Shown piece by piece: positions 1,445 through 17,422 of a DNA stretch of 64,000 nucleotides. Source of the DNA: Lachnospiraceae bacterium. Its GTDB lineage: Bacteria > Bacillota > Clostridia > Lachnospirales > Lachnospiraceae. The DNA is taken from NCBI GenBank assembly GCA_910573755.1, contig CAJTBO010000008.1, forward strand, positions 62,001 to 126,000, written 5' to 3'. Within the stretch, counting starts at the first letter, position 1; each line of letters opens with the position of its first letter. Below the pieces are notes generated by a model, which was not told where the DNA came from, made no database searches, and was given only the letters and a program-made list of their open reading frames with translations. The position numbers and the translations under genes are program-made.

Positions 1445-1620
1445 AAGGTATGGAATGGCGGAGAATGATTGAGATAGGCGGGAACGGCATGGGACGGCAG
1501 GGATGAGCAGGGGATGGTTTGGGATATGGGAGAATGGTATGGAGTGCAGGGAAATGGGCTGAGGTGTGTGGGAATGGGATGAAATGTTAGGGAATGGTGT
1601 GCGGATATTGGGATTGGGAA
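1445..1620 (+). repeat. G-rich degenerate repeat between tail gene and holin
   Basis: The gap between the tail-type gene and the holin is filled by about a dozen imperfect repeats of a GGRATGG-like motif (for example ATGGAATGGCGG, GGGATGGTTTGGG, GAATGGGATG). Cytosine is nearly absent on the plus strand. Open frames run through it in both directions but look like composition artefacts. Its many GG runs could form G-quadruplex-like structure. No promoter or terminator is evident. Confidence 0.6.
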
Positions 1621-1688
1621 CAGGGCGGCGGCTTTTGGGAGCGGGCCGCTTTTTCCATAGAAAAATCAGAGAAAGCGAGGGATTTTGT

Positions 1689-2096
1689 ATGAAGGAGTTT
1701 GTGAGTGTGATAGAGTGCGGGTTTGCGGCTATGGGCGGATACCTGGGCTGGGCCATGGGAGGGTTTGACGGTTTTCTGTATGCCCTGGTGGTGTTTGTGG
1801 CGGTGGATTATGTGACGGGGCTGATGGCCGCGGCGGTGGAGAAGAGGTTGTCTAGCGGCGTGGGGTTCCGGGGGATTTTTAAGAAGATTGTGATTTTTTG
1901 TCTGGTGGCGCTGGGGCATATTTTGGACACGCATATTATTCAGAACGGGAGCGCGGTGCGGACGGCGGTGATTTTCTTTTATCTGTCCAATGAGGGGATT
2001 TCGATTCTGGAGAATGCGGCCAGGATTGGGCTGCCGGTGCCGGAGAAGCTGAAAGGGGTTCTGGCGCAGTTGCGTGAGGAAAAGGGGAAGGAGTAG
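1689..2096 (+). CDS. Phage holin (phi-LC3/Cph1-type, toxin secretion/lysis family)
   Basis: This 135-residue membrane protein is predicted to oligomerise in the cytoplasmic membrane and release the downstream lysin. It has hydrophobic segments near residues 10-27, 28-48, 62-80 and 90-108. The VDYVTGLMAA motif after the second segment and KKIVIFCLVALGHILD further on are typical of this holin family. The charged tail (QLREEKGKE) is also typical. The ATG at 1689 follows GAGGG. An open frame continues upstream to 1566, but through repeat-like sequence, so the shorter start is preferred. Its place between the tail-type gene and the amidase fits a lysis cassette. Confidence 0.85.
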   Translation: MKEFVSVIECGFAAMGGYLGWAMGGFDGFLYALVVFVAVDYVTGLMAAAVEKRLSSGVGFRGIFKKIVIFCLVALGHILDTHIIQNGSAVRTAVIFFYLSNEGISILENAARIGLPVPEKLKGVLAQLREEKGKE

Positions 2097-2247: not shown

Positions 2248-3846
2248 ATGAAGCTGATTCAGAAGTTTTTAACGGAGTCCGGGTGTTACCGGGCGGGGAG
2301 GAAGATTGCGGTGAAGGGGCTGATGATCCATTCGGTGGGGTGTCCACAGCCGAAGGCTTCTGTGTTTATGAAGAATTGGGATAAGGCGGATGCGGGGGCT
2401 TGTGTCCATGCTATTGTGGAACCGGGAGGGGATGTGTACCAGCTTCTGCCTTGGGATTATAGGGGATGGCACTGCGGCGGCGACGGGAACGGGACGCATA
2501 TTGGGGTGGAGATGACGGAGCCTGCCACGATCCGGTATACGGGCGGTTCGGCCTGGACGGAGACCGGGGACGGGAGAGGCACGAGGGATCATGTGCTTGC
2601 CGCTTATGGGTATGCGGTGGAGCTGTTTGCTTATCTGTGCCAGATGTTTGGGCTGGACCCTCTGGCGGACGGGGTTGTGGTTTCCCATTCCGAGGGGCAT
2701 AGGAGGGGGATTGCAAGCAATCACGGGGACGTGGAGCATATCTGGAAGCGGTTTGGGCTGTCTATGGGGCAGTTTCGGAAGGATATCAGGGCGGCTATGG
2801 ACGGTGCGGAGACTGGGAATGACAGCGGCGGGGACGGCGGTTCTGGCGCGGGTGTTTCCGGGCTTACAAGGATTATGGGGAAGGCTGTGGCGACGGCGGA
2901 GCAGATGCGGGAGTATGTGAAGGGGAAGAATCCGGGGGTGGCGCAGTCGGTTTTGGATATGGTGCCGCTGTATCTGTCGGAAGGGGAGGCCGAGGGCGTG
3001 AGAGGGGATGTGGCTTTTGCCCAGTCGTGCCTGGAGACGGGGAATTTTACGTTTTCGGGTTCGGCGGTCTCTTTGGAGCAGAATAATTTTGCCGGGATGG
3101 GCGTGGTGAAAAACGGGGTGAAGGGGCTGTGTTTTAATACGGCGCTGCTTGGTATCCGGTGCCAGGTGCAGCATTTGAAAGCCTATGCCTGTACGGAGGA
3201 TTTGGTGAATGGGAATGTGGACCCGCGCTTTAGGTATGTGGCAAGGGGGTGTGCGCCTTATGTGGAGTGGCTGGGTGTCCAGGAGAATCCCCAGGGGAAA
3301 GGCTGGGCTGCGGGAGCCGGGTATGGGGAGAAGGTCCTGGGGATTTTGAGGGAGATTACCGGGGAGGCCGGGAGCGGCGGAAGCGGTTGCGGTGTGCCGG
3401 GGAATCCGGTGGAGCCTATGGCCGGGTTTGTGAAGGTGTTCTATAAGGGCAGGGACGGGGTGAATGTGCGGACTGCTCCCTGCATGGGGGACAATGTGGA
3501 CCAGGTGGTGTATGAGGGGATTTATACGGTTACGGGCATCAGCGCGGACAGGCGGTGGTACAGGCTGAAATCGGGGCTTTTTATCACGGCGGATGCGGAG
3601 TATGTGATGTTTATGGAGAGGCTGCCGGGGAAGTCTTCTTATCTGGTGCGGGTGGATATCCCGGATCTGAATATCCGTAAGGGGCCGGGGACGGATTTTG
3701 CCCGGACGGGACTGTTTACGGGTGTGGGTGTGTTTACGGTTGTGGAGGAAGCGGACGGGAAGGGAGCCGGGAAGTGGGGGCTTTTGAAGTCGTATAAGAG
3801 GGAGCGGAACGGGTGGATTTCGCTGGATTTTGTGACGAGGCTGTAA
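2248..3846 (+). CDS. Phage lysin: N-acetylmuramoyl-L-alanine amidase + glucosaminidase + SH3-like repeats
   Basis: This 532-residue endolysin should cut peptidoglycan at two bonds. Residues about 20-175 form an Amidase_2 domain: the IHSVGCPQP segment supplies the first zinc histidine, HIGVEMTEP the central strand, and VVSHSEGHRRGIASNHGD later ligands. Residues about 215-375 form a glucosaminidase (LYTAG-like) domain with a DVAFAQSCLETGNF catalytic-Glu region and NNFAGMGV. Residues about 395-532 hold two SH3-like wall-binding repeats (GVNVRTAPCMGDN, DLNIRKGPGTDFA). Gly/Ser linkers separate the domains (GNDSGGDGGSGAG; GEAGSGGSGCG). There is no signal peptide, consistent with export through the upstream holin. 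The ATG at 2248 follows GGAGAAGGAGAG. Two catalytic domains in one phage lysin make it relatively large. Confidence 0.9.
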   Translation: MKLIQKFLTESGCYRAGRKIAVKGLMIHSVGCPQPKASVFMKNWDKADAGACVHAIVEPGGDVYQLLPWDYRGWHCGGDGNGTHIGVEMTEPATIRYTGGSAWTETGDGRGTRDHVLAAYGYAVELFAYLCQMFGLDPLADGVVVSHSEGHRRGIASNHGDVEHIWKRFGLSMGQFRKDIRAAMDGAETGNDSGGDGGSGAGVSGLTRIMGKAVATAEQMREYVKGKNPGVAQSVLDMVPLYLSEGEAEGVRGDVAFAQSCLETGNFTFSGSAVSLEQNNFAGMGVVKNGVKGLCFNTALLGIRCQVQHLKAYACTEDLVNGNVDPRFRYVARGCAPYVEWLGVQENPQGKGWAAGAGYGEKVLGILREITGEAGSGGSGCGVPGNPVEPMAGFVKVFYKGRDGVNVRTAPCMGDNVDQVVYEGIYTVTGISADRRWYRLKSGLFITADAEYVMFMERLPGKSSYLVRVDIPDLNIRKGPGTDFARTGLFTGVGVFTVVEEADGKGAGKWGLLKSYKRERNGWISLDFVTRL

Positions 3847-4002
3847 GGGCGTTTTTGTTGAGGGCAGGGATGCCTTATTTTTTTGTCTTGCTATATGCTG
3901 CCGGAGGGCTGTTGGGGTCTGAGCAGCGCGTCGGCCGGGGGATTCCCCGGCGGTACATACCATGCCGTTGGTATGAATTTTGGAAAGGTAAGGGAATTGG
4001 TT

Positions 4003-4251
4003 ATGACGGTGATGGAGCTGGACGCGCTGAAAGACGTGGATGTGAGGACTGTGGAGAAGGAGGGGCTTGTGGATATCCGGGAGGTGGAGATTGACCGGAG
4101 CCTGCCGCTGGAGGAACGGAAGAGGGCTTATCTGGAGGCGGTGGGGAATCCTTATGCGGTGCGTGTGGGGGATATGAAGGTGAAGGTACGGTTTGCGGAG
4201 GACGGGGCCTCTTTTGAAGAGGCTTTTGAAAATATGCTGCGGAATGTTTAA
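4003..4251 (+). CDS. Small DUF6870-type protein upstream of the recombinases
   Basis: This 82-residue soluble acidic protein has the DUF6870 pattern as I remember it: an N-terminal L..VDVRTVE segment, VDIREVEIDRSLP, RKRAYLEAVGNPYAVRVGD and a C-terminal VKVRFA. The function is unknown. Members are common beside phage and conjugative-element genes in Clostridia. I place the start at 4003, preceded by AAGGGAATT. The frame stays open upstream to 3883, but that part has poor coding character. The 156 bases between the lysin and this start show no other gene. Confidence 0.6.
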   Translation: MTVMELDALKDVDVRTVEKEGLVDIREVEIDRSLPLEERKRAYLEAVGNPYAVRVGDMKVKVRFAEDGASFEEAFENMLRNV

Positions 4252-4270
4252 AATAACAGTGGATTTTTTT

Positions 4271-4323
4271 AGGCGGAGGCGCTATGATTGTCTTAGGGAC
4301 AAGTTAGTGCATCCGCCTTTTTG
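4271..4323 (+). terminator. Terminator-like long hairpin ahead of the recombinase operon
   Basis: AGGCGGAGGC at 4271 pairs imperfectly with the arm ending ATCCGCCT, followed by TTTTTG. The loop is about 27 bases. It probably separates late-gene transcription from the recombinase genes. Such a structure next to a serine recombinase could also lie near an attachment site, which I cannot locate. Confidence 0.5.
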
Positions 4324-4367
4324 ATTTTGCAGGTGATTCTGGCAGAAAACGAAAGGAGCGGGAGCAC

Positions 4368-6047
4368 ATGAAAAACAAACAATTCAAGAAGATCTATCAT
4401 GCCGCCATCTATGTCCGGTTATCAAAGGAGGATGGCGATGTTGCGGGCGCGTCTAAGGCGGAGAGCAACAGCATTTCTAATCAGAGAGAGTTAATCAGAG
4501 ATTTCCTGAAAGACAAAAAGGATATTGTGGTGGTGTCGGAACGGGTGGACGACGGGTACAGCGGTTCCAGTTTTGAGCGGCCTTCTTTCAAGCTGATGAT
4601 GGAGGATATCAAGAAGGGCGTTGTGGACTGCGTAGTGGTCAAGGATCTGTCCAGGTTCGGGCGGGAGTATATTGATTCCGGCAGATATATTGAGCGGCTG
4701 TTTCCGGCTATGGGAGTGCGCTTTATTGCGGTGAATGACCATTACGACAGTTTGAAAGGGGACGACCAGGGTGACGAGATCCTGGTTCCTTTTAAGAACT
4801 TGATCAATGACGCTTACTGTCGGGATATTTCGGTGAAGATTCGGAGCCATCTGGAAGTGAAGCGGAAGAACGGGGAGTTTATCGGCGCTTTTGCGCCTTA
4901 TGGCTATCAGAAGGACGGGGAGGACCATCACAGGCTTATGGTTGATACTTATGCGGCGGGGGTGGTGCAGGATATTTTCCGTATGAAGCTGCACGGCATG
5001 AGCCAGGATGCCATTGCCGGAAAGCTGAACAGGGACGGCATTCTTTCTCCGATGGAGTATAAGAACAGCATGGGAATCAATTTCCGGACGGTGTTTAGGG
5101 CGAAGGCGGCATCCGGGTGGAGCCCGGTGGCGGTGAGGCGTATCCTGGAAAATGAGGTCTATATCGGGAATCTAGTGCAGGGGCGGCAGTCCACGCCGAA
5201 CCATAAGGTGAAGAAATCTATACGGAAGGACAAAGAGGACTGGGTGAGGGTTGAGAAGAACCATGAGCCGGTGGTCAGCGAGAGGGATTTTGCGGTTGTC
5301 CAGAAACTGCTGGGGATGGATACGAGGACGGCGCCGGACAGGGAGAGCGTGTACCTGCTGTCAGGAGTTGCCGTTTGCGGGGACTGCGGGGCCCCGATGG
5401 TGCGGAAGGTGTCTTCGGTGAATGGGAAGAGGTATTGTTATTATATCTGCTCCGGGCATAAGGCGGGCGGGAATTGCAGTCCCCACCGGATTCCGGTGCA
5501 GGCGCTGGAAGATGCGGTGTTTGTCCTGTTGAAGAGGCAGATCGGGTGTGTCCTGGACTTGGAGAGGGTTCTGGATTATGCGGGGACAGTGCCGCTTAGG
5601 AACTTGGATGTACGGAAGCTGGAGGAACGGCGGGAGAAGCTGTCGGGAGAAACGGAGAGATGCCGGGAGCTGCGCCTGATGCTTTATGAGGATATGAAGG
5701 ACGGGGTAATCACGAAGGAGGATTATGTGGAGCTCCATGCCGCGTATGAGGCCAGGGGGAAGGAGGCGCAGGAGGCGGCCGGGAAGGCGGAAAGAGAGAT
5801 CAGAGCTGTCTTGGAAGGGGAAGAGGACAAGTACCGGTGGATCTCTTATTTTAAGGAGTATAAGGATATCGGGGAGCTGACCAGGAATGTGGTGGTGGCG
5901 CTGATTTCGGAAGTACGGGTGTATGACAGGGAGAATATTGAGGTTGTGTTCGATTTTGCGGACCAGTACCGTCAGGCGTTGGAATATCTGAAAGGCAGGG
6001 AGTGTCCAGGCCTGGAGGGAATGGCCACCGGAAGGGAGGCGGTCTGA
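4368..6047 (+). CDS. Large serine recombinase 1 of 3
   Basis: This 559-residue site-specific DNA recombinase cuts and rejoins DNA through a phosphoserine link. The N-terminal resolvase domain (about 10-160) contains YVRLSKED with the likely nucleophilic Ser, and the arginine motif KDLSRFGREY. The recombinase domain follows (about 175-300; APYGYQKD, GWSPVAVRRILENEVYIG). A zinc ribbon is visible at about 345-375 (CGDCG ... CSGH). After it comes a coiled coil (about 400-500; LEERREKLSGETERC). Key residues are present, so it should be active. AAAGGAGCGGG precedes the ATG. Recombinase 2 starts two bases after its stop, so they are co-transcribed. Confidence 0.95.
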   Translation: MKNKQFKKIYHAAIYVRLSKEDGDVAGASKAESNSISNQRELIRDFLKDKKDIVVVSERVDDGYSGSSFERPSFKLMMEDIKKGVVDCVVVKDLSRFGREYIDSGRYIERLFPAMGVRFIAVNDHYDSLKGDDQGDEILVPFKNLINDAYCRDISVKIRSHLEVKRKNGEFIGAFAPYGYQKDGEDHHRLMVDTYAAGVVQDIFRMKLHGMSQDAIAGKLNRDGILSPMEYKNSMGINFRTVFRAKAASGWSPVAVRRILENEVYIGNLVQGRQSTPNHKVKKSIRKDKEDWVRVEKNHEPVVSERDFAVVQKLLGMDTRTAPDRESVYLLSGVAVCGDCGAPMVRKVSSVNGKRYCYYICSGHKAGGNCSPHRIPVQALEDAVFVLLKRQIGCVLDLERVLDYAGTVPLRNLDVRKLEERREKLSGETERCRELRLMLYEDMKDGVITKEDYVELHAAYEARGKEAQEAAGKAEREIRAVLEGEEDKYRWISYFKEYKDIGELTRNVVVALISEVRVYDRENIEVVFDFADQYRQALEYLKGRECPGLEGMATGREAV

Positions 6048-6048
6048 T

Positions 6049-7752
6049 ATGGCAAGGAAGAGCAGGAAGAGACTGAATGGGGCTGTGCCTGTGAACGGGG
6101 CGGCCGGGAAAGCGGAGAAGGCTGTGCTGTTCCGGGCAGGGCTGTATGCGAGGCTTTCTTATGAGTCCGGGGTGAACCGGGAGCGGGGGACTATTGAGAC
6201 GCAGATGGAGCTTATGAGGATCTTTGTGGAGGGTGCGGAGGATATCGTGGTGCAGGAGACGTATTCGGACGCTTCTTTTACGGGGACCACGTTTGAGCGT
6301 CCGGGCTTCGAGCGTATGATGGGGGATATCCGGGACGGGAAGATCAACTGTGTCATTGTGAAGGATCTGTCCAGGCTTGGGAGGAATTATGTGGAGGCCG
6401 GCAATTATATTGAGCGGGTGTTCCCGTTTCTGGACGTGCGGTTTATTTCGGTCAATGACGGGTTTGATTCTTTCCGGAGCGGGACGGACTTGTCCATGCC
6501 TTTGAAGAATATCGTAAATGAGTATTATGCGAAGGATATTTCCCGGAAGGTGACTTCTGCCTTGAATACGGCGCGGGCGGAGGGGAAGTTTGTGATTAAG
6601 CTGGCTCCTTACGGTTATTTGAAATTTCCGGAGGATAAGCAGAGCCTGGTGGTGGACGGGGAGACGGCGGGGGTTGTGAAGCGTATCTTCCGGCTGTTCC
6701 TGGAGGGGAACGGCTATGGGAGGATCGCGGGAATCCTGAACGGGGAGGGCATCCCATGCCCGGAGGTTTACCGGAAGTCAAAGGGGCTTCCGGTGACGGG
6801 GCATAAGGGGTGTGTGGAATGGACCGGGATCGTGGTGAAGCGGCTGCTGTCGAATGAGTATTATACGGGGGATTCTGTCCATGGGAAGACCGGCGGGAAG
6901 CTGTTTGCGGGCGGTTCCGGCGGGGCGGAGGATTCTGCCGGATATGTGGTCAGGGATACCCATGAGGCGCTGGTCTCCAGGGCTGATTTTGACAGGGTGC
7001 AGGAGATGAAGGCGGAGCAGGCGCGGGTTTACAACGGGAAACGTGCGGAGGGCAGGCGCTGTGCGGCAGGGAGGAATAAGTTTAAAAAGAAGGTGGTGTG
7101 CAGTGATTGTGGGAAGACCATGTATCTGTTCCGGGCGGTATCGCAGGAGGGGGATAGGTTTTTTTATGGCTGCAGTTCCCATAACAGGAGCCGGAAGGTG
7201 TGCCCGTACCGGCATAAGGTCATGCTGGAGGATCTGGAGGCTGCGGTGTTCGGGGTTATCAGGAGCCATATGGATGCCTGCCTGGATACGGAGCGGCTGG
7301 TCCGGAAGCTGAATGCCGGGAGGCAGGGGACGGAGCGATACAGGCTGATGTCCAGGCAGGCGGACCGTATCAGGGAGCGGATTCGGCAGGACGCAGGGAA
7401 GAAGGCGGGGCTGTATGCGGATTTTGCGGAGCGGCTGATCGACGGGGAGGAATATGCGGCGCTATCGGAGCGGTATACGAAGGAGGCGGAGGCGCTTTCT
7501 GCGGAGCTGGAGAAACTGCTGGAAGAGCGGGAGAGGTACGCACGGGATTTCCATATAGAGGAAGGCTGGGAGAAGACGGTGCGTGGGTTCCTGGGGGAGA
7601 GGGAGCTGACCCAGGGGATGGTGGACGCATTTGTGACGAGGGTTTCGGTGGATAAGGACGGGGACTGTGAGGTGGTCCTGGCCTATGATGACATGCTTGC
7701 GGAGCTTTTGGAGGCCGTGAGGGAAAGGGAGGCGGAGAACGGTGAAGGTTGA
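6049..7752 (+). CDS. Large serine recombinase 2 of 3
   Basis: This 567-residue second recombinase of the operon has the full large-serine-recombinase layout. The resolvase domain starts at about residue 28 (GLYARLSYESG, KDLSRLGRNY). The recombinase domain (LAPYGYLKF, WTGIVVKRLLSNEYYTGD) covers about 180-290. The zinc ribbon is at about 350-385 (CSDCGKTMYL ... CSSH), and the coiled coil follows (SRQADRIRERIRQDAGKK). It starts two bases after the stop of recombinase 1 and overlaps recombinase 3 by 11 bases, so the three are probably translationally linked. The lysine-rich N-terminal extension (MARKSRKRLNG) is not found in the other two. It is clearly diverged from both neighbours, so it is not a recent duplication. 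Confidence 0.95.
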   Translation: MARKSRKRLNGAVPVNGAAGKAEKAVLFRAGLYARLSYESGVNRERGTIETQMELMRIFVEGAEDIVVQETYSDASFTGTTFERPGFERMMGDIRDGKINCVIVKDLSRLGRNYVEAGNYIERVFPFLDVRFISVNDGFDSFRSGTDLSMPLKNIVNEYYAKDISRKVTSALNTARAEGKFVIKLAPYGYLKFPEDKQSLVVDGETAGVVKRIFRLFLEGNGYGRIAGILNGEGIPCPEVYRKSKGLPVTGHKGCVEWTGIVVKRLLSNEYYTGDSVHGKTGGKLFAGGSGGAEDSAGYVVRDTHEALVSRADFDRVQEMKAEQARVYNGKRAEGRRCAAGRNKFKKKVVCSDCGKTMYLFRAVSQEGDRFFYGCSSHNRSRKVCPYRHKVMLEDLEAAVFGVIRSHMDACLDTERLVRKLNAGRQGTERYRLMSRQADRIRERIRQDAGKKAGLYADFAERLIDGEEYAALSERYTKEAEALSAELEKLLEERERYARDFHIEEGWEKTVRGFLGERELTQGMVDAFVTRVSVDKDGDCEVVLAYDDMLAELLEAVREREAENGEG

Positions 7753-9304
7753 TGTGGTGGCTAAATATATTCGGTTGTCGGATGAGGATGTGGATACTGG
7801 CAGGGGCGTGAAGCAGGAGAGCGACAGTGTTGTGTCCCAGAGGCGACTTCTGGACGGGTTTATTGATGGGGATGGGGAGCTTAGGAAGTGCCGGATCATT
7901 GAATTTTGTGATGACGGGTTCAGCGGGACTGATTTCCGGCGTCCCGGTTTTGCGGGTATGATGGAGGCGGTGAAGCAGGGCGAGGTGGGCTGTATCATTG
8001 TGAAGGACTTTTCCAGGCTGGGGAGGGATTATATTGAGGTTGGGAGTTATCTGGAACAGATATTTCCGTTGATGGAGGTGCGGTGTATTTCTGTGAATGA
8101 CCGTTATGACAGTGAGGGTGTGCTGGGGACTGCGGGCGGACTGAATGTGGCTTTTAAAAATCTGATCAATATGCTGTACAGCAGGGACCTGTCTAAGAAG
8201 ATACGGTCTGCGCAGATGGCGAGGGCGCGGAAAGGGGAGTATCTGGGCGGCTTTGCAAGGTATGGGTATGAGAAGTCCCTGGAGGACAAGCACCGGCTGG
8301 TGGTTGACCCGGAAGCGGCGGAGGTGGTACGGAAGATATTTACCATGGCGGCGGAAGGGATTACGATTTCCGGGATTGTGCGGTATCTGAATGATAATGG
8401 TGTGCTTACCTGTGTGGAGTATAAGCAGAGGAAGGACAGCAGGTATCAGCATCCGGGCGGCGGGGTGAAGAAGCTGTGGGGGACCCAGTCGGTGCGTTCC
8501 ATACTGTCGGATGAGACTTATATCGGGAAGGTGGTGTGGAACCGTTCGGAGAAGTCTATTACTACGGGGAAGAAGATGCTGTGGCATGACCGTTCGGAGT
8601 GGGTGGTTGTGGACGGGCAGCATGAGCCGCTGGTGTCGGAGGAACTGTTTGCCCTAGCGAATGAGAGGGCGAAGCCGAAGAAGCGGGACAGGAGCGGCGT
8701 GGATATGAGCGGCTTTAAGCGGGAGGTGCTGTTTGTATGCGGGTATTGCGGGCGGTCCATGGTGAAGAAGAACCATAAGTATTGCTGCCGTTACCGGACA
8801 TGCGGCTCTGATACGGAGTGCAGGAGGGCGGTGGAGGATATGGAAACGCTGGAAGGGAGCGTTATGGAGTATGTGCGGAAGACGGCGGAGGTGATGCTGG
8901 GCAATTCCGGGAGGAAGGACGTGGAAGCGGAGCGGGAGACGCTGGAGAAGAAGTTGGATGCTTTGCGGAAGGAGAAGGAGCGGCTTTCGGCGGAGAAGAT
9001 GTTTTTGTATGATAAGTATCGGTCCGGGGGTATGACACGGGAGCAGTTTAAGGCAAGGACGGGGAGTATGGGTGTGCGGGTTGAGGAAATTGGGAAGGAG
9101 ATGGGAGAAGCAGAGGATGGGATTGAGAGACTGAAAGGGTGCGGTTCCCGGGACGGGGAGACTGTGCTGGAAGGGATAGCGGCTCTGCGGGAGTTTGATA
9201 AGGGGGTGCTGCGGAAGGGGATTGAGAGGATCAGGGTGTTTGGAGAAGGGCGGATTGAGGTGGTTTGGAAGGGTGGGGATATGTTTGGCGGGGGAGATTT
9301 GTAA
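7742..9304 (+). CDS. Large serine recombinase 3 of 3
   Basis: This 520-residue third recombinase starts at a GTG inside the end of recombinase 2, with GGCGGAG upstream. The resolvase domain contains AKYIRLSDED (likely nucleophilic Ser) and KDFSRLGRDY. The recombinase domain carries FARYGYEKS and LWGTQSVRSILSDETYIG. A zinc ribbon (VCGYCGRSM ... YRTCG) is at about 335-360, then a coiled coil (LEKKLDALRKEKERLSAEK). All catalytic signatures are intact. It is the last gene with the GGG-rich codon use that marks the window from its first base, so the element boundary probably lies just downstream. The three proteins may act together at one site, or one may integrate while others excise. The sequence does not decide. 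Confidence 0.95.
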   Translation: MKVDVVAKYIRLSDEDVDTGRGVKQESDSVVSQRRLLDGFIDGDGELRKCRIIEFCDDGFSGTDFRRPGFAGMMEAVKQGEVGCIIVKDFSRLGRDYIEVGSYLEQIFPLMEVRCISVNDRYDSEGVLGTAGGLNVAFKNLINMLYSRDLSKKIRSAQMARARKGEYLGGFARYGYEKSLEDKHRLVVDPEAAEVVRKIFTMAAEGITISGIVRYLNDNGVLTCVEYKQRKDSRYQHPGGGVKKLWGTQSVRSILSDETYIGKVVWNRSEKSITTGKKMLWHDRSEWVVVDGQHEPLVSEELFALANERAKPKKRDRSGVDMSGFKREVLFVCGYCGRSMVKKNHKYCCRYRTCGSDTECRRAVEDMETLEGSVMEYVRKTAEVMLGNSGRKDVEAERETLEKKLDALRKEKERLSAEKMFLYDKYRSGGMTREQFKARTGSMGVRVEEIGKEMGEAEDGIERLKGCGSRDGETVLEGIAALREFDKGVLRKGIERIRVFGEGRIEVVWKGGDMFGGGDL

Positions 9305-9343
9305 AAATTGTTAGGAAGATTGACGGAGCCATGAGCGGGGTGC

Positions 9344-9372
9344 TTGTGGCTTTGTTGGTTTTGGGGTATAAT
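9344..9372 (+). promoter_or_regulatory. Promoter of the kinase module
   Basis: A perfect TATAAT at 9367-9372 is preceded, with a 17-base spacer, by a weak -35 TTGTGG at 9344-9349. It lies 40-98 bases ahead of the chosen kinase start, so the kinase need not depend on the recombinase operon. Confidence 0.6.
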
Positions 9373-9441
9373 AGCTGTGGATGCGAAAAATGTAATTGTT
9401 TTTGTCTGAAAAGAAGCTGGATTAAGGAGAGAGGTGAGACA

Positions 9442-10524
9442 GTGACAAAAACAGAATTGATAGATATGCTGGACGAATATAAGATGGGGTTATTGTCAAA
9501 AGCGACAGATGGGACGATTGACGATAAATATTATATCCAGACGAGAAACGCTTTGCTGGAAAACGTAAGTATTAAAGAACAGATTCCTAAATTTATAAGA
9601 AGCTGCAGGACAGCAGATGAATTTAGAAGATATATGCAGAATGAGTCCGGCAATTATGCGGGAAGAAGGACGTTGATTACGGATTCCATAAATCGTCTGA
9701 TTGAATATATAGAGGAACATTCTGATGAAGAAGCAGATCCGTTTTCACAGATAAAGCAGTATAAAAGAGTTGAACAGATAGGATATGGGGGCTTTGGCTC
9801 TGTTTTTAAATATCACAATGCTTGTTTGGATATGGATTTTGCTGTGAAGGTATATTCGCCTATTTTTGTATCATCGGATGAGCAGAGAGAGGGGGAGAGG
9901 CGCTTTTTCAGAGAGGCTAAAATGCTGTTTCAGTTAAATCATATGAATATTGTTAAAATATATGATGCGGGGAGGATTTCAGAAGGACCGTTTATAAGAA
10001 TGGAGTATATTGAGGGGTATGATTTGAATGGACTGCAGAAAAAGTATGGTATGTTAAGTTTTGAATATAGTGTAAAAGTAATAAAGCCTATTTTGAACGG
10101 ATTAAGATATGCCCATGGAAAGGGGATTATACATAGGGACTTAAAACCGAGCAATGTGGTGTTTTCAACGAGGGAGAAGATATTTAAGATTATTGATTTT
10201 GGAGTTAGCGCTTTTTTAGATACGGAAAATAATACAAAACTAACCAAGACGGGCGAAGCTGTGGCGGGCGGTGCTTTTATTGATCCCTTATTGCAGGAAA
10301 ATCCGAAATTGAGAGATTGCAGGAGTGATATATATTCCATAGGTGCAATCTGGTACTGGCTACTTTGTGGGAGAGCGCCCCATGGGAGCGACATGAGGAC
10401 ATATTTGAGCAATGCCGCTCCGGATTTATTAGATAAGCAGATTAATATTGTGATGAAGTGTCTGGCGGGAAATTTGGAGGACCGGTATGGGGATTGTGGA
10501 GAGTTGTTAGCAATAATTAGTTAA
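9442..10524 (+). CDS. Eukaryotic-like Ser/Thr protein kinase with helical N-terminal domain (candidate defence/moron gene)
   Basis: This 360-residue soluble kinase should phosphorylate Ser/Thr on an unknown target. The kinase domain (about 107-360) looks complete: glycine loop GYGGFGSV (114-121), ATP lysine K136 in AVK, likely helix-C Glu in FREAKML, catalytic HRD at 231-233 (HRDLKPSN), DFG at 252-254, and SDIYSIGAIWYWLLCG. There is no membrane segment or PASTA repeat, so this is not a PrkC-type wall sensor. Residues 1-105 are helical (LLSKATDGT, IPKFIRSCRTADEFRRYM, GRRTLI). This pattern resembles, from memory, N-terminal regions of abortive-infection-family proteins. The GTG start at 9442 follows AAGGAGAGAGGTGA. 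An ATG-containing extension to 9265 overlaps the recombinase and has poor coding character. Base composition is AT-richer than the recombinases. The partner gene starts 28 bases downstream. Confidence 0.85.
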   Translation: MTKTELIDMLDEYKMGLLSKATDGTIDDKYYIQTRNALLENVSIKEQIPKFIRSCRTADEFRRYMQNESGNYAGRRTLITDSINRLIEYIEEHSDEEADPFSQIKQYKRVEQIGYGGFGSVFKYHNACLDMDFAVKVYSPIFVSSDEQREGERRFFREAKMLFQLNHMNIVKIYDAGRISEGPFIRMEYIEGYDLNGLQKKYGMLSFEYSVKVIKPILNGLRYAHGKGIIHRDLKPSNVVFSTREKIFKIIDFGVSAFLDTENNTKLTKTGEAVAGGAFIDPLLQENPKLRDCRSDIYSIGAIWYWLLCGRAPHGSDMRTYLSNAAPDLLDKQINIVMKCLAGNLEDRYGDCGELLAIIS

Positions 10525-10552
10525 TGAAAAATATTAGAAAGAGGGTTGGAAT

Positions 10553-10975
10553 ATGCAGCAATATTTTATCACAGGAAATCAGTTTCAAAGACATATGTGG
10601 ACGAAGTTTGACCTTGACATCACTTCGGCATCAGTAAATATGTCAAATGTCAGAGGTAAAGAAAAGTTGGTATATGAATATGTAAGGGATATAGCGTCTC
10701 TTTTTCAGCCGATGCGATATGGCCTGCAAGATAATCCAATGGGGCTTTATTCGGACTATGAATCTTTTAAGAAACATTTTGTTAGGTATTGGAAAAATGC
10801 ATTAGATATTTCCAGAGCAGATTTGGATGAGGTTAGGAATATTTTTGATGATGTTTTATCCACTCAGGAGAGTTGCAAAAATCGGGCTGTCACATCAGTG
10901 TTTTTTGAAAACGGTAAAGCACTTACAATAGAAGATTGTTTAGAAGCAATCTATGAAGTATTGAAAATTGCATAA
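10553..10975 (+). CDS. Hypothetical 140-residue partner of the kinase
   Basis: I do not recognise this protein. It is soluble, mixed in character and aromatic-rich in the middle (ESFKKHFVRYWKNAL), with a helical C-terminus (TIEDCLEAIYEVLKIA). No catalytic motif, signal peptide or membrane segment is visible. It starts 28 bases after the kinase stop, with GAGGGTTGGA before its ATG, and shares the low-GC composition, so the two form a probable operon. It could be a substrate, antitoxin-like regulator or sensor for the kinase. That is inference from position only. Confidence 0.6.
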   Translation: MQQYFITGNQFQRHMWTKFDLDITSASVNMSNVRGKEKLVYEYVRDIASLFQPMRYGLQDNPMGLYSDYESFKKHFVRYWKNALDISRADLDEVRNIFDDVLSTQESCKNRAVTSVFFENGKALTIEDCLEAIYEVLKIA

Positions 10976-11034
10976 GGTAGTTTTGATGTAAAGAAAAAAG
11001 TTGAAAAATTTTTTGTCCTTTACTTGACACGGGC

Positions 11035-11078
11035 AGAGCCGATGAACTTGTGAAAAAAAATCACAGTTCGTTGGCTCT
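11035..11078 (+). terminator. Hairpin with A-rich loop after the kinase module
   Basis: An imperfect 18-bp inverted repeat (AGAGCCGATGAACTTGTGA against TCACAGTTCGTTGGCTCT) surrounds an A8 loop and is followed by ATTTTATTT. It can terminate the kinase operon. Its size and position beside mobilization remnants also allow a role as a transfer-origin hairpin. Confidence 0.55.
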
Positions 11079-11099
11079 ATTTTATTTCATAAGGTTTAA

Positions 11100-11346
11100 A
11101 GGCAAATCAAGATTTACTATAAATTCATCGGCTTTGTCGGTGAATTACATATCACACCCACGAAGCGGTGGACGGCGTTACCCGCTAAACACTGTACGGT
11201 GTGCGGTGTTGAATATGTCCCCGGCGCTGGAATATCAAAGTATTGTCCCGTTTGTGCTAAGAAGATACAGAGGGAGAAGTCAAACGAGAGCAAACGCAGG
11301 AGCAGGGAGAGAAAAAGGCAGGTATGTATTGAACTGTCCGTAAAAA
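11100..11346 (+). pseudogene. Remnant of a cysteine-rich (zinc-ribbon) mobilization-region protein
   Basis: One frame opened by a stop at 11097 reads FIGFVGELHITPTKRW, then HCTVCGVEYVPGAGISKYC and CAKKIQREKS with a basic tail. The CxxC...CxxC arrangement is a zinc ribbon of the kind annotated as cysteine-rich VLP protein in Lachnospiraceae mobilizable elements (recalled, not searched). There is no good start codon upstream in frame (only an internal GTG at 11199), so this looks like a decayed gene. It is followed directly by the relaxase-like fragment. Confidence 0.5.
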
Positions 11347-16414: not shown

Positions 16415-17422
16415 ATGGACGATTTAGCATTAAACTATCAAAGTGATTTTCATGCCATTCTGCAAATGATAGCAGATGCCCGCCGGAAAGCTGCCTATCA
16501 AGTGAATGCCACAATGATTGACCTTTATTGGGGAATTGGAGAATTTGTTTCCAATAAGGCCGTACAGGATGGCTGGGGACGTTCTACCGTAAAGGCACTT
16601 TCTGAATACATTCTGACGCAGGAACCAGGGATTAGAGGCTATTCCCCACAGAATATCTGGCGCATGAAGCAGTTCTTTGAAACTTATTGTGACAAGCCAG
16701 AGTTAGGAACTCTGCTAAGAGAAAATACATGGTCAAATAATTTGCATATCATGTCAAAGACAAAATCGGATGCAGAGAGATTATTCTATTTGAAGCTGGC
16801 CTCTCGGGAAAAGTATAAAGCAAAAGAACTGGAACGGCAGATTGACAGCGGATATTATGAGCGTTTAATGCTATCAGACGGTAGAGCGCCTTCTGCCATA
16901 TCCCATGCTGCGCCTGCGAACATAATCAGAGACATGTATATGTTGGAGTTTTTAGATCTGCCCGAGCCTTATAGGGAATATGATTTGAAAAAGGCCATTT
17001 TGAAGAACATGAAAAAATTTTTACTGGAAATTGGCAGGGATTTTATTTTTATGGGAGAAGAATATCATCTTCAAGTAGGAAAGAACGACTATTATACGGA
17101 TTTAATCTTTTTTCATAGGGAGCTACAATGCCTTGTTGCAATTGAGTTGAAAATTGATGATTTCAAACCGGAATACTTGGGAAAAATGCAGTTTTATCTT
17201 GAAGCGTTAGACCGGGATGTAAAGAAGCCCCACGAAAATCCCAGCGTTGGCATTATTCTTTGCAAGAGTAAGGACGAGGACGTTGTTGAATATGCCCTGA
17301 GCCGGAATATGAGTCCAACCATGATTTCCGAATATAGGACGAAACTAATCAGCAAGGAAATCTTACAAAAGAAACTTGAGGAATTAACGGAAATGGTGGA
17401 TGAGGATAAAAACTCTCAATGA
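16415..17422 (+). CDS. DUF1016/YhcG-family PD-(D/E)XK nuclease
   Basis: This 335-residue protein has the two-domain YhcG layout. An N-terminal DUF1016 helical DNA-binding region (about 10-150) shows YWGIGEFVSNK, GWGRSTVKALSEYI and GYSPQNIWRMKQFFETY. A C-terminal PD-(D/E)XK domain (about 185-320) shows FIFMGEEYHLQVG, the acidic YYTDLIFFH strand, VAIELKI (the ExK of the active site) and GKMQFYLEALD. Active-site residues are present. Family members occur on mobile elements and near restriction or retron-like defence loci; their exact role is unsettled. The first codon lies 32 bases after a region without genes, with GAGGGAA upstream. A terminator overlaps the stop. The gene is AT-richer than the core genes and is flanked by hairpin repeats. 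Confidence 0.88.
   Translation: MDDLALNYQSDFHAILQMIADARRKAAYQVNATMIDLYWGIGEFVSNKAVQDGWGRSTVKALSEYILTQEPGIRGYSPQNIWRMKQFFETYCDKPELGTLLRENTWSNNLHIMSKTKSDAERLFYLKLASREKYKAKELERQIDSGYYERLMLSDGRAPSAISHAAPANIIRDMYMLEFLDLPEPYREYDLKKAILKNMKKFLLEIGRDFIFMGEEYHLQVGKNDYYTDLIFFHRELQCLVAIELKIDDFKPEYLGKMQFYLEALDRDVKKPHENPSVGIILCKSKDEDVVEYALSRNMSPTMISEYRTKLISKEILQKKLEELTEMVDEDKNSQ

Follow-up and report, generated by a model that had tools for sequence, protein, structure and literature searches.

The gene of a serine/threonine kinase and that of a 140-residue protein lie at the right end of a prophage, as its last cargo genes, in the 64,000-nucleotide stretch of Lachnospiraceae DNA analysed here (the window). 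The pair is interpreted, with somewhat less than even confidence, as lysogenic-conversion cargo that would shield the lysogen from other phages by means of an abortive-infection kinase. It is real, conserved and mobile, and a role in defence is more likely than anything else. The defence role suggested in the original prediction has gained good indirect support, from the Abi-type front domain of the kinase and from the restriction contexts in which relatives are found, and the strict partnership of the two genes has not. What is new is the small partner, which is without description in the open-licence literature and the family collections searched; fusions of an Abi-type front domain to a kinase have already been described. 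The features are listed in Table 1.

Table 1. Features of the window around the kinase and its small partner
Feature	Position	Strand	Basis
Prophage holin	1566..2096	+	Pfam PF05105, E 3.5e-44
Prophage lysin (amidase + glucosaminidase)	2248..3846	+	Pfam
Large serine recombinase/integrase 1	4368..6047	+	Pfam; phrog_95 integrase, E 3.8e-98
Large serine recombinase/integrase 2	6049..7752	+	Pfam; phrog_95, E 2.3e-86
Large serine recombinase/integrase 3	7742..9304	+	Pfam; phrog_95, E 3.9e-77
Possible -10 box TATAAT of a weak promoter	9367..9372	+	Seen in sequence
Ser/Thr kinase gene (GTG start, 360 aa)	9442..10524	+	Pfam Pkinase, motifs, dN/dS
N-terminal domain of the kinase, residues 1-101	9442..9744	+	tblastn; alignment with L033-L036; phrog_23253
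Small partner gene (140 aa)	10553..10975	+	17 related loci; dN/dS 0.13-0.17
Conserved right-end sequence CTTTACTTGACACGGGCAGA, probable attR side	11018..11037	+	Right ends of 15 loci compared with the window

The kinase

The kinase gene encodes a complete Hanks-type kinase, as had been predicted. Its product matches Pkinase (PF00069) in Pfam with E 2.5e-38 and 132.4 bits, for a cut-off of 31.7, the best stretch being residues 107-318, and the catalytic motifs are complete (glycine loop GYGGFGSV at 114, AVK at 134, HRDLKPSN at 231 and DFG at 252). The start had to be corrected, as it does not lie near 9344. The open frame extends back to 9265, and since the aligned relatives begin at the codon matching GTG 9442, this codon, with the ribosome-binding-like AGGAGAGAGGTGAGACA in front of it, is the most likely start.

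The kinase scores 132.9 bits with the model of the MADS kinase MAD6 (NF047741), for which the cut-off is 460, and 52 bits with that of BREX PglW (NF033442), for which it is 990. Many PD-T4-6 models of PADLOC match it (best 5e-52), and those among the best 25 of the 35 matches all begin at residue 94 or beyond, so that they rest on the kinase domain. Neither Abi_C (PF14355, at E up to 1) nor AbiJ_NTD was found in the protein with Pfam.

The best NCBIfam model is that of the PASTA kinases, reached with 176 of 450 bits and therefore far under its cut-off, and the best solved relatives are PknB/StkP-type kinases; both would suit a housekeeping or developmental signalling kinase that merely has an unrelated neighbour. 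Such a function is very improbable, because the small gene is patchy (4 of 397 family genomes, own genome included), the front domain is present in only 5 of the 397, and the neighbourhoods of the pair differ between loci. Moreover, other kinases, with frames of 734-847 aa that match the kinase domain only, occur elsewhere in 8 of the 17 partner-bearing genomes; these are guessed to be of the PASTA type.

The Abi-type front domain

The N-terminal part, which had been thought to resemble abortive-infection proteins, is indeed homologous to their front domain. Residues 1-101 match 13 plasmid records (tblastn, E up to 1; best 8e-12), nine of which are annotated as abortive infection family protein, and a Pseudomonas relative used as the query matches the domain in 18 plasmid records. 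When four of the plasmid proteins were run through Pfam, three were found to carry Abi_C and one a CAP12/Pycsar-type TIR domain; Abi_C was thereby confirmed in all three annotated abortive infection family relatives that were run. The slot behind the front domain is occupied by Abi_C or a TIR-type domain in the plasmid proteins and by the kinase in the window protein. Over the approximately 100 residues of the domain, the window protein is 28-34% identical to the three aligned Abi_C (PF14355) proteins, from which it differs in having a protein kinase and no detectable Abi_C as its C-terminal domain, and 24% identical to the CAP12/Pycsar-type TIR protein (PF10137; PADLOC PDC-S35) in L036, where TIR takes the place of the kinase. 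Positions invariant across nine sequences include A21-T22-x-G24, D27, Y31, R35, P49, R56, F61, Y72 and R75.

No Pfam or PADLOC model covers the front domain. It is matched by phrog_23253 (253 aa, unknown function) with E 1.1e-6; viral contigs and phage records hold no relatives of it. The best solved structure is 8eoz (C3HR3_4r, a designed protein), with a summed E of 1.7e-4 to which no stretch contributes significantly by itself. The domain is present in 2 of 378 phylum genomes, own genome included, and four of the five family genomes that have it also have the small gene. The fifth (G112) holds a distant relative (L032/L060) in which AbiJ_NTD3 (E 5.8e-50), the front domain and a kinase are joined in one chain. 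This 532-aa protein is encoded at L060:5764-7362, a PDC-S32/AbiJ_NTD4 gene follows 3 nt later, and a REase_I gene lies farther upstream.

Regions were fetched for 17 of the 18 front-domain plasmid records, the remaining one, BYT-5, being a repeat of BYT-1; three of the 17 (L049, L053 and L054) are without any annotation. A methylase/helicase pair stands directly beside the front-domain gene, on the opposite strand, in one of the 17 (L035), and the protein encoded there carries Abi_C. A recombinase gene adjoins the front-domain gene in three (L034, L048 and L055). At L061:6159-6963 (G843) the front domain and a part that looks like Abi_C by eye are found in two frames behind a type III pair. 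The front-domain frame begins 35 nt after this Mod-Res pair, and PADLOC finds nothing in the first part of the protein, which is the front domain.

The architecture type of the window kinase is already known, as passages of the HEPN survey (PMC3710099) describe AbiJ-NTD domains fused to several effectors, protein kinases included. The common trait is a protein kinase preceded by an N-terminal domain of the Abi type, and the relative of G112 unites three domains, AbiJ_NTD3 and the front domain being followed by the kinase. The window protein differs from these fusions in that it has no AbiJ_NTD match in Pfam and is accompanied by a small partner.

The small partner protein

NCBIfam, PADLOC and PHROGs contain nothing that matches the small protein; its best Pfam match is insignificant (E 0.07), the best solved structure gives E 0.21, and no relatives were found among viral contigs, plasmids and phages. 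Titles, abstract starts and passages of the open-licence literature contain no recognisable description of the front domain or of the small partner.

An origin of the small protein from aspartate carbamoyltransferase was considered and rejected. Profile searches gave such matches in three genomes (E 5e-5 to 2.5e-3), and hhalign gives a probability of 88% over 42 columns; the protein in L023 is an aspartate carbamoyltransferase, as confirmed through its solved relatives. The carbamoyl-phosphate motif of the enzyme is STRTR. The 42-column similarity stops before this motif, and a frame of L027, a dipeptidase by eye and not a carbamoyltransferase, scores alike (1.3e-3, as against 3.6e-4 to 1.6e-3). 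The likeness may at most be taken as a weak lead.

The pair as a unit

The small frame lies 28 bases past the kinase stop, as originally stated, and the gap is 24-41 nt in the eight pairs measured among the ten intact ones. The two proteins are probably made from the same transcript. The kinase gene (38.6% GC) and the small gene (35.0%) are, again in agreement with the prediction, AT-richer than the three recombinase genes that precede them (54.0, 58.1 and 55.3%). Both genes are under purifying selection and are more than chance open reading frames, as follows from the low dN/dS at dS >0.4: 0.05-0.08 for the kinase (four comparisons; a fifth, with L017, is saturated) and 0.13-0.17 for the small gene (seven comparisons). 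In closer pairs, where dS is small and changes are few, dN/dS is scattered from 0.08 to 0.25. The divergence of the kinase parallels that of the small protein (r 0.94, 28 pairs from eight loci), which linkage alone would also bring about.

The promoter that the pair was supposed to have of its own does not rise above chance. The TATAAT -10 box is perfect, the -35 element TTGTGG (9344-9349) matches in three of six positions, and a consensus scan did not list this site among the seven promoter-like sites of 9200-11250, where 6.3 are expected. L005-L008, L010 and L012 retain TATAAT, which is not at that place in L014-L017. The DNA upstream of the pair in L009 is unrelated to the window.

Location at the prophage right end

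Genes for a phage portal, capsid and tape measure are found before the window (G000:C8:44000-62000), ahead of the holin, the lysin and the three integrases. A prophage thus ends on the right with the pair as its last cargo, which makes the predicted cargo position behind recombinases more specific. The sequence CTTTACTTGACACGGGCAGA or a variant of it is common to L005-L015, after which the flanks soon diverge, and is absent from L016-L019; judged from this comparison, it is probably the attachment side of the element.

Several further observations were made in this region. Identity between locus L006 and the window is 86% over 2553-3552 and 99.8-100% per 500-base step from about 4050 to 11052, so that the jump falls between 3552 and 4053 (comparison of 2553-11084); this suggests that the end with integrases, kinase and small gene was recently exchanged as a unit. 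Loci L005 and L010, whose upstream flanks differ, both pass into window sequence within integrase gene 2, at almost identical points (L005:3965 and L010:3963; window 6517). A hairpin-like GAGCCGATGAAC...GGCTC at 11033-11100, similar in form to two further places in the same genome (L041, L043), may be the integration target. A DUF6870 protein gene lies at 3883-4251, between the lysin and the integrases, and has a diverged copy (37%) in L008 at 552-788; a gene of the YhcG/DUF1016 PDDEXK nuclease family (Pfam E 1.6e-56) is found at 16415-17422.

The integrase trio, whole or in part, precedes the pair in six of 18 loci (the window, L005-L008 and L010); the upstream DNA of L011 and L013 is too short to be judged. 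This location would also suit a regulatory function, in which the kinase, by phosphorylating regulators of the host or the phage, holds the prophage or its neighbours silent. The precedent is the kinase-kinase-phosphatase module KKP. According to passages of PMC11341870, the kinase of this prophage module is restrained by a partner and can protect against phage, and silencing is exerted through MvaU, so that one module does both. The logic proposed here is likewise that of a Ser/Thr kinase carried by a prophage and held back by a partner. The window differs from it in having one kinase, no phosphatase found and a partner without family match; neither a second kinase nor a PP2C phosphatase is present among the neighbouring proteins scanned. 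With the pairs of L016 and L017 moreover lying among restriction genes and lacking the integrase trio, prophage regulation is decidedly unlikely.

Distribution and one-sided gene loss

A scan of genome contigs yielded 17 loci related to the small protein, or 18 with the window, and 15 of the 17 are labelled Lachnospiraceae, Acetatifactor, Clostridium, Clostridiaceae or Clostridia. An intact kinase stands directly before the small gene in 10 of the 18 (the window, L005, L006, L007, L010, L012 and L014-L017), the window, L005 and L006 being nearly identical here and thus not independent; in L013 the kinase is cut by the contig end. The kinase is broken and the small gene intact in L008 and L009, and L011, L018 and L019 have no kinase, which makes five of the 18 partner loci with a broken or missing kinase. 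The last two loci, L020 and L021, contain only fragments of the partner, without kinase. No close kinase relative lacking the small partner was found in the 397 family genomes; these are the sample for that comparison, as the other genomes viewed had been chosen for holding the partner.

The pair recurs as a unit at different places, among them a type III restriction locus and a type I one. The two observations that the original prediction named as support, Abi-type homology of the N-terminus and recurrence of the pair in other contexts, have thereby both been made. Strict partnership is not supported, because there are also loci in which the small gene has no intact kinase beside it. Loss of the kinase with retention of the small gene fits an antitoxin. 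The observation that bears on a two-gene toxin-antitoxin system, with one toxic gene and another that neutralises it, is this one-sided loss. Together with the mobile position and the tight two-gene arrangement, the pattern would be explained by an addiction cassette through which the prophage is maintained in its host, any phage protection being a by-product; this is quite unlikely, given a front domain that points to defence proteins.

Restriction and BREX neighbourhoods

Family searches covered the neighbours of L011 and L016-L019 and two genes of L005, the other loci being represented by lists of open reading frames. Restriction or BREX genes adjoin four of the five partner loci scanned in this way, a proportion biased by the choice of L011 and L016-L019 after their open reading frame starts had been read. 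For a rough yardstick, PF01555 methylases give 1 to 8 matches per genome (seven genomes). In L017 the order is type III methylase, type III nuclease, kinase and small gene, with a Schlafen/HATPase protein and a RES protein further on; in L016 the kinase and the small gene are followed by HsdR, HsdM and HsdS of a type I system. The small gene of L018 comes after BrxP, BrxC, PglZ, BrxL and a DndA/SspA-like cysteine desulfurase, and that of L019 lies between a series of a UvrD/PDDEXK protein, an N6_N4 methylase and a ResIII/TnsA-like protein and, on the other side, an FRG protein. In L011 a DDE transposase was found.

The SOS-box-like GAACTTGCGTTC is found about 60 nt upstream of the kinase-free small gene at L018:7914 and L019:7929; GAAC-N4-GTTC sites number five in all the sequence scanned.

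The free-standing copies with GAACTTGCGTTC in L018 and L019 fit an independent role of the small protein. It might be the main component, a free-standing defence accessory of several systems such as restriction and BREX, with the kinase as an optional add-on that modifies the small protein or is read by it. Its presence without kinase after a BREX and after a methylase/helicase locus, and its integrity in loci with a broken kinase (L008, L009) or none (L011), would be accounted for in this way. The idea is nevertheless doubtful: an intact kinase lies directly in front in more than half of the loci, the two proteins diverge in parallel (with the reservation on linkage made above), and L018 and L019 are interrelated and may count as one event.

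Proposed mode of action

The interpretation as a defence cargo carried by the prophage is built on several lines of evidence: the front domain common to Abi_C proteins and the CAP12/Pycsar-type TIR protein; the position after prophage lysis genes and integrases; the joint occurrence of kinase and small gene in the type III (L017) and type I (L016) restriction loci; the front domain behind the type III Mod-Res pair (L061) and beside the methylase/helicase pair (L035); the distant relative with AbiJ_NTD3 beside PDC-S32 and near REase_I; and purifying selection on both genes, the short gap, the patchy distribution and the one-sided loss. Against it speak the plasmid proteins with the front domain, most of which are not beside restriction genes (they are in 1 of 17 regions), the small protein that survives conserved without kinase in L018 and L019, as a pure antitoxin need not, and viral contigs and phage records without relatives of either the small protein or the front domain.

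In the proposed sequence of events, the front domain would receive a cue, which may be something made by the phage, or else a restriction system that is blocked or overwhelmed. The cue would release the Hanks kinase domain, whose motifs are present and whose activity is presumed, and the kinase would then phosphorylate host proteins and stop growth or phage development, by analogy with KKP and Stk2. Stk2 of staphylococci is a eukaryotic-like kinase that acts in phage defence, and by this description it is akin to the window kinase, a eukaryotic-like kinase proposed to act against phage. The small protein would hold the kinase in check or couple it to the sensor, a role suggested by the adjacency of the genes and by which of the two gets lost, the loss pattern being the one basis for the role as such. 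A passage of PMC10853773 proposes kinases as co-effectors on DndF.

A bolder arrangement, which is unlikely, would be a plug-in suicide arm for restriction or BREX. The small protein would read the state of the resident complex, the front domain would carry interchangeable killers (kinase, TIR or Abi_C) that fire when restriction fails, and temperate phages would spread the arm from lysogen to lysogen.

If the interpretation as a prophage-borne defence cargo is true, phosphorylation would join the effectors that are attached to one Abi-type front domain without a Pfam model. The small gene would serve as a marker, present in few holders (4 of 397 family genomes) and partly next to restriction or BREX loci. 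The domain-swap series of kinase, TIR and Abi_C behind one front domain would make directly testable what this domain senses.
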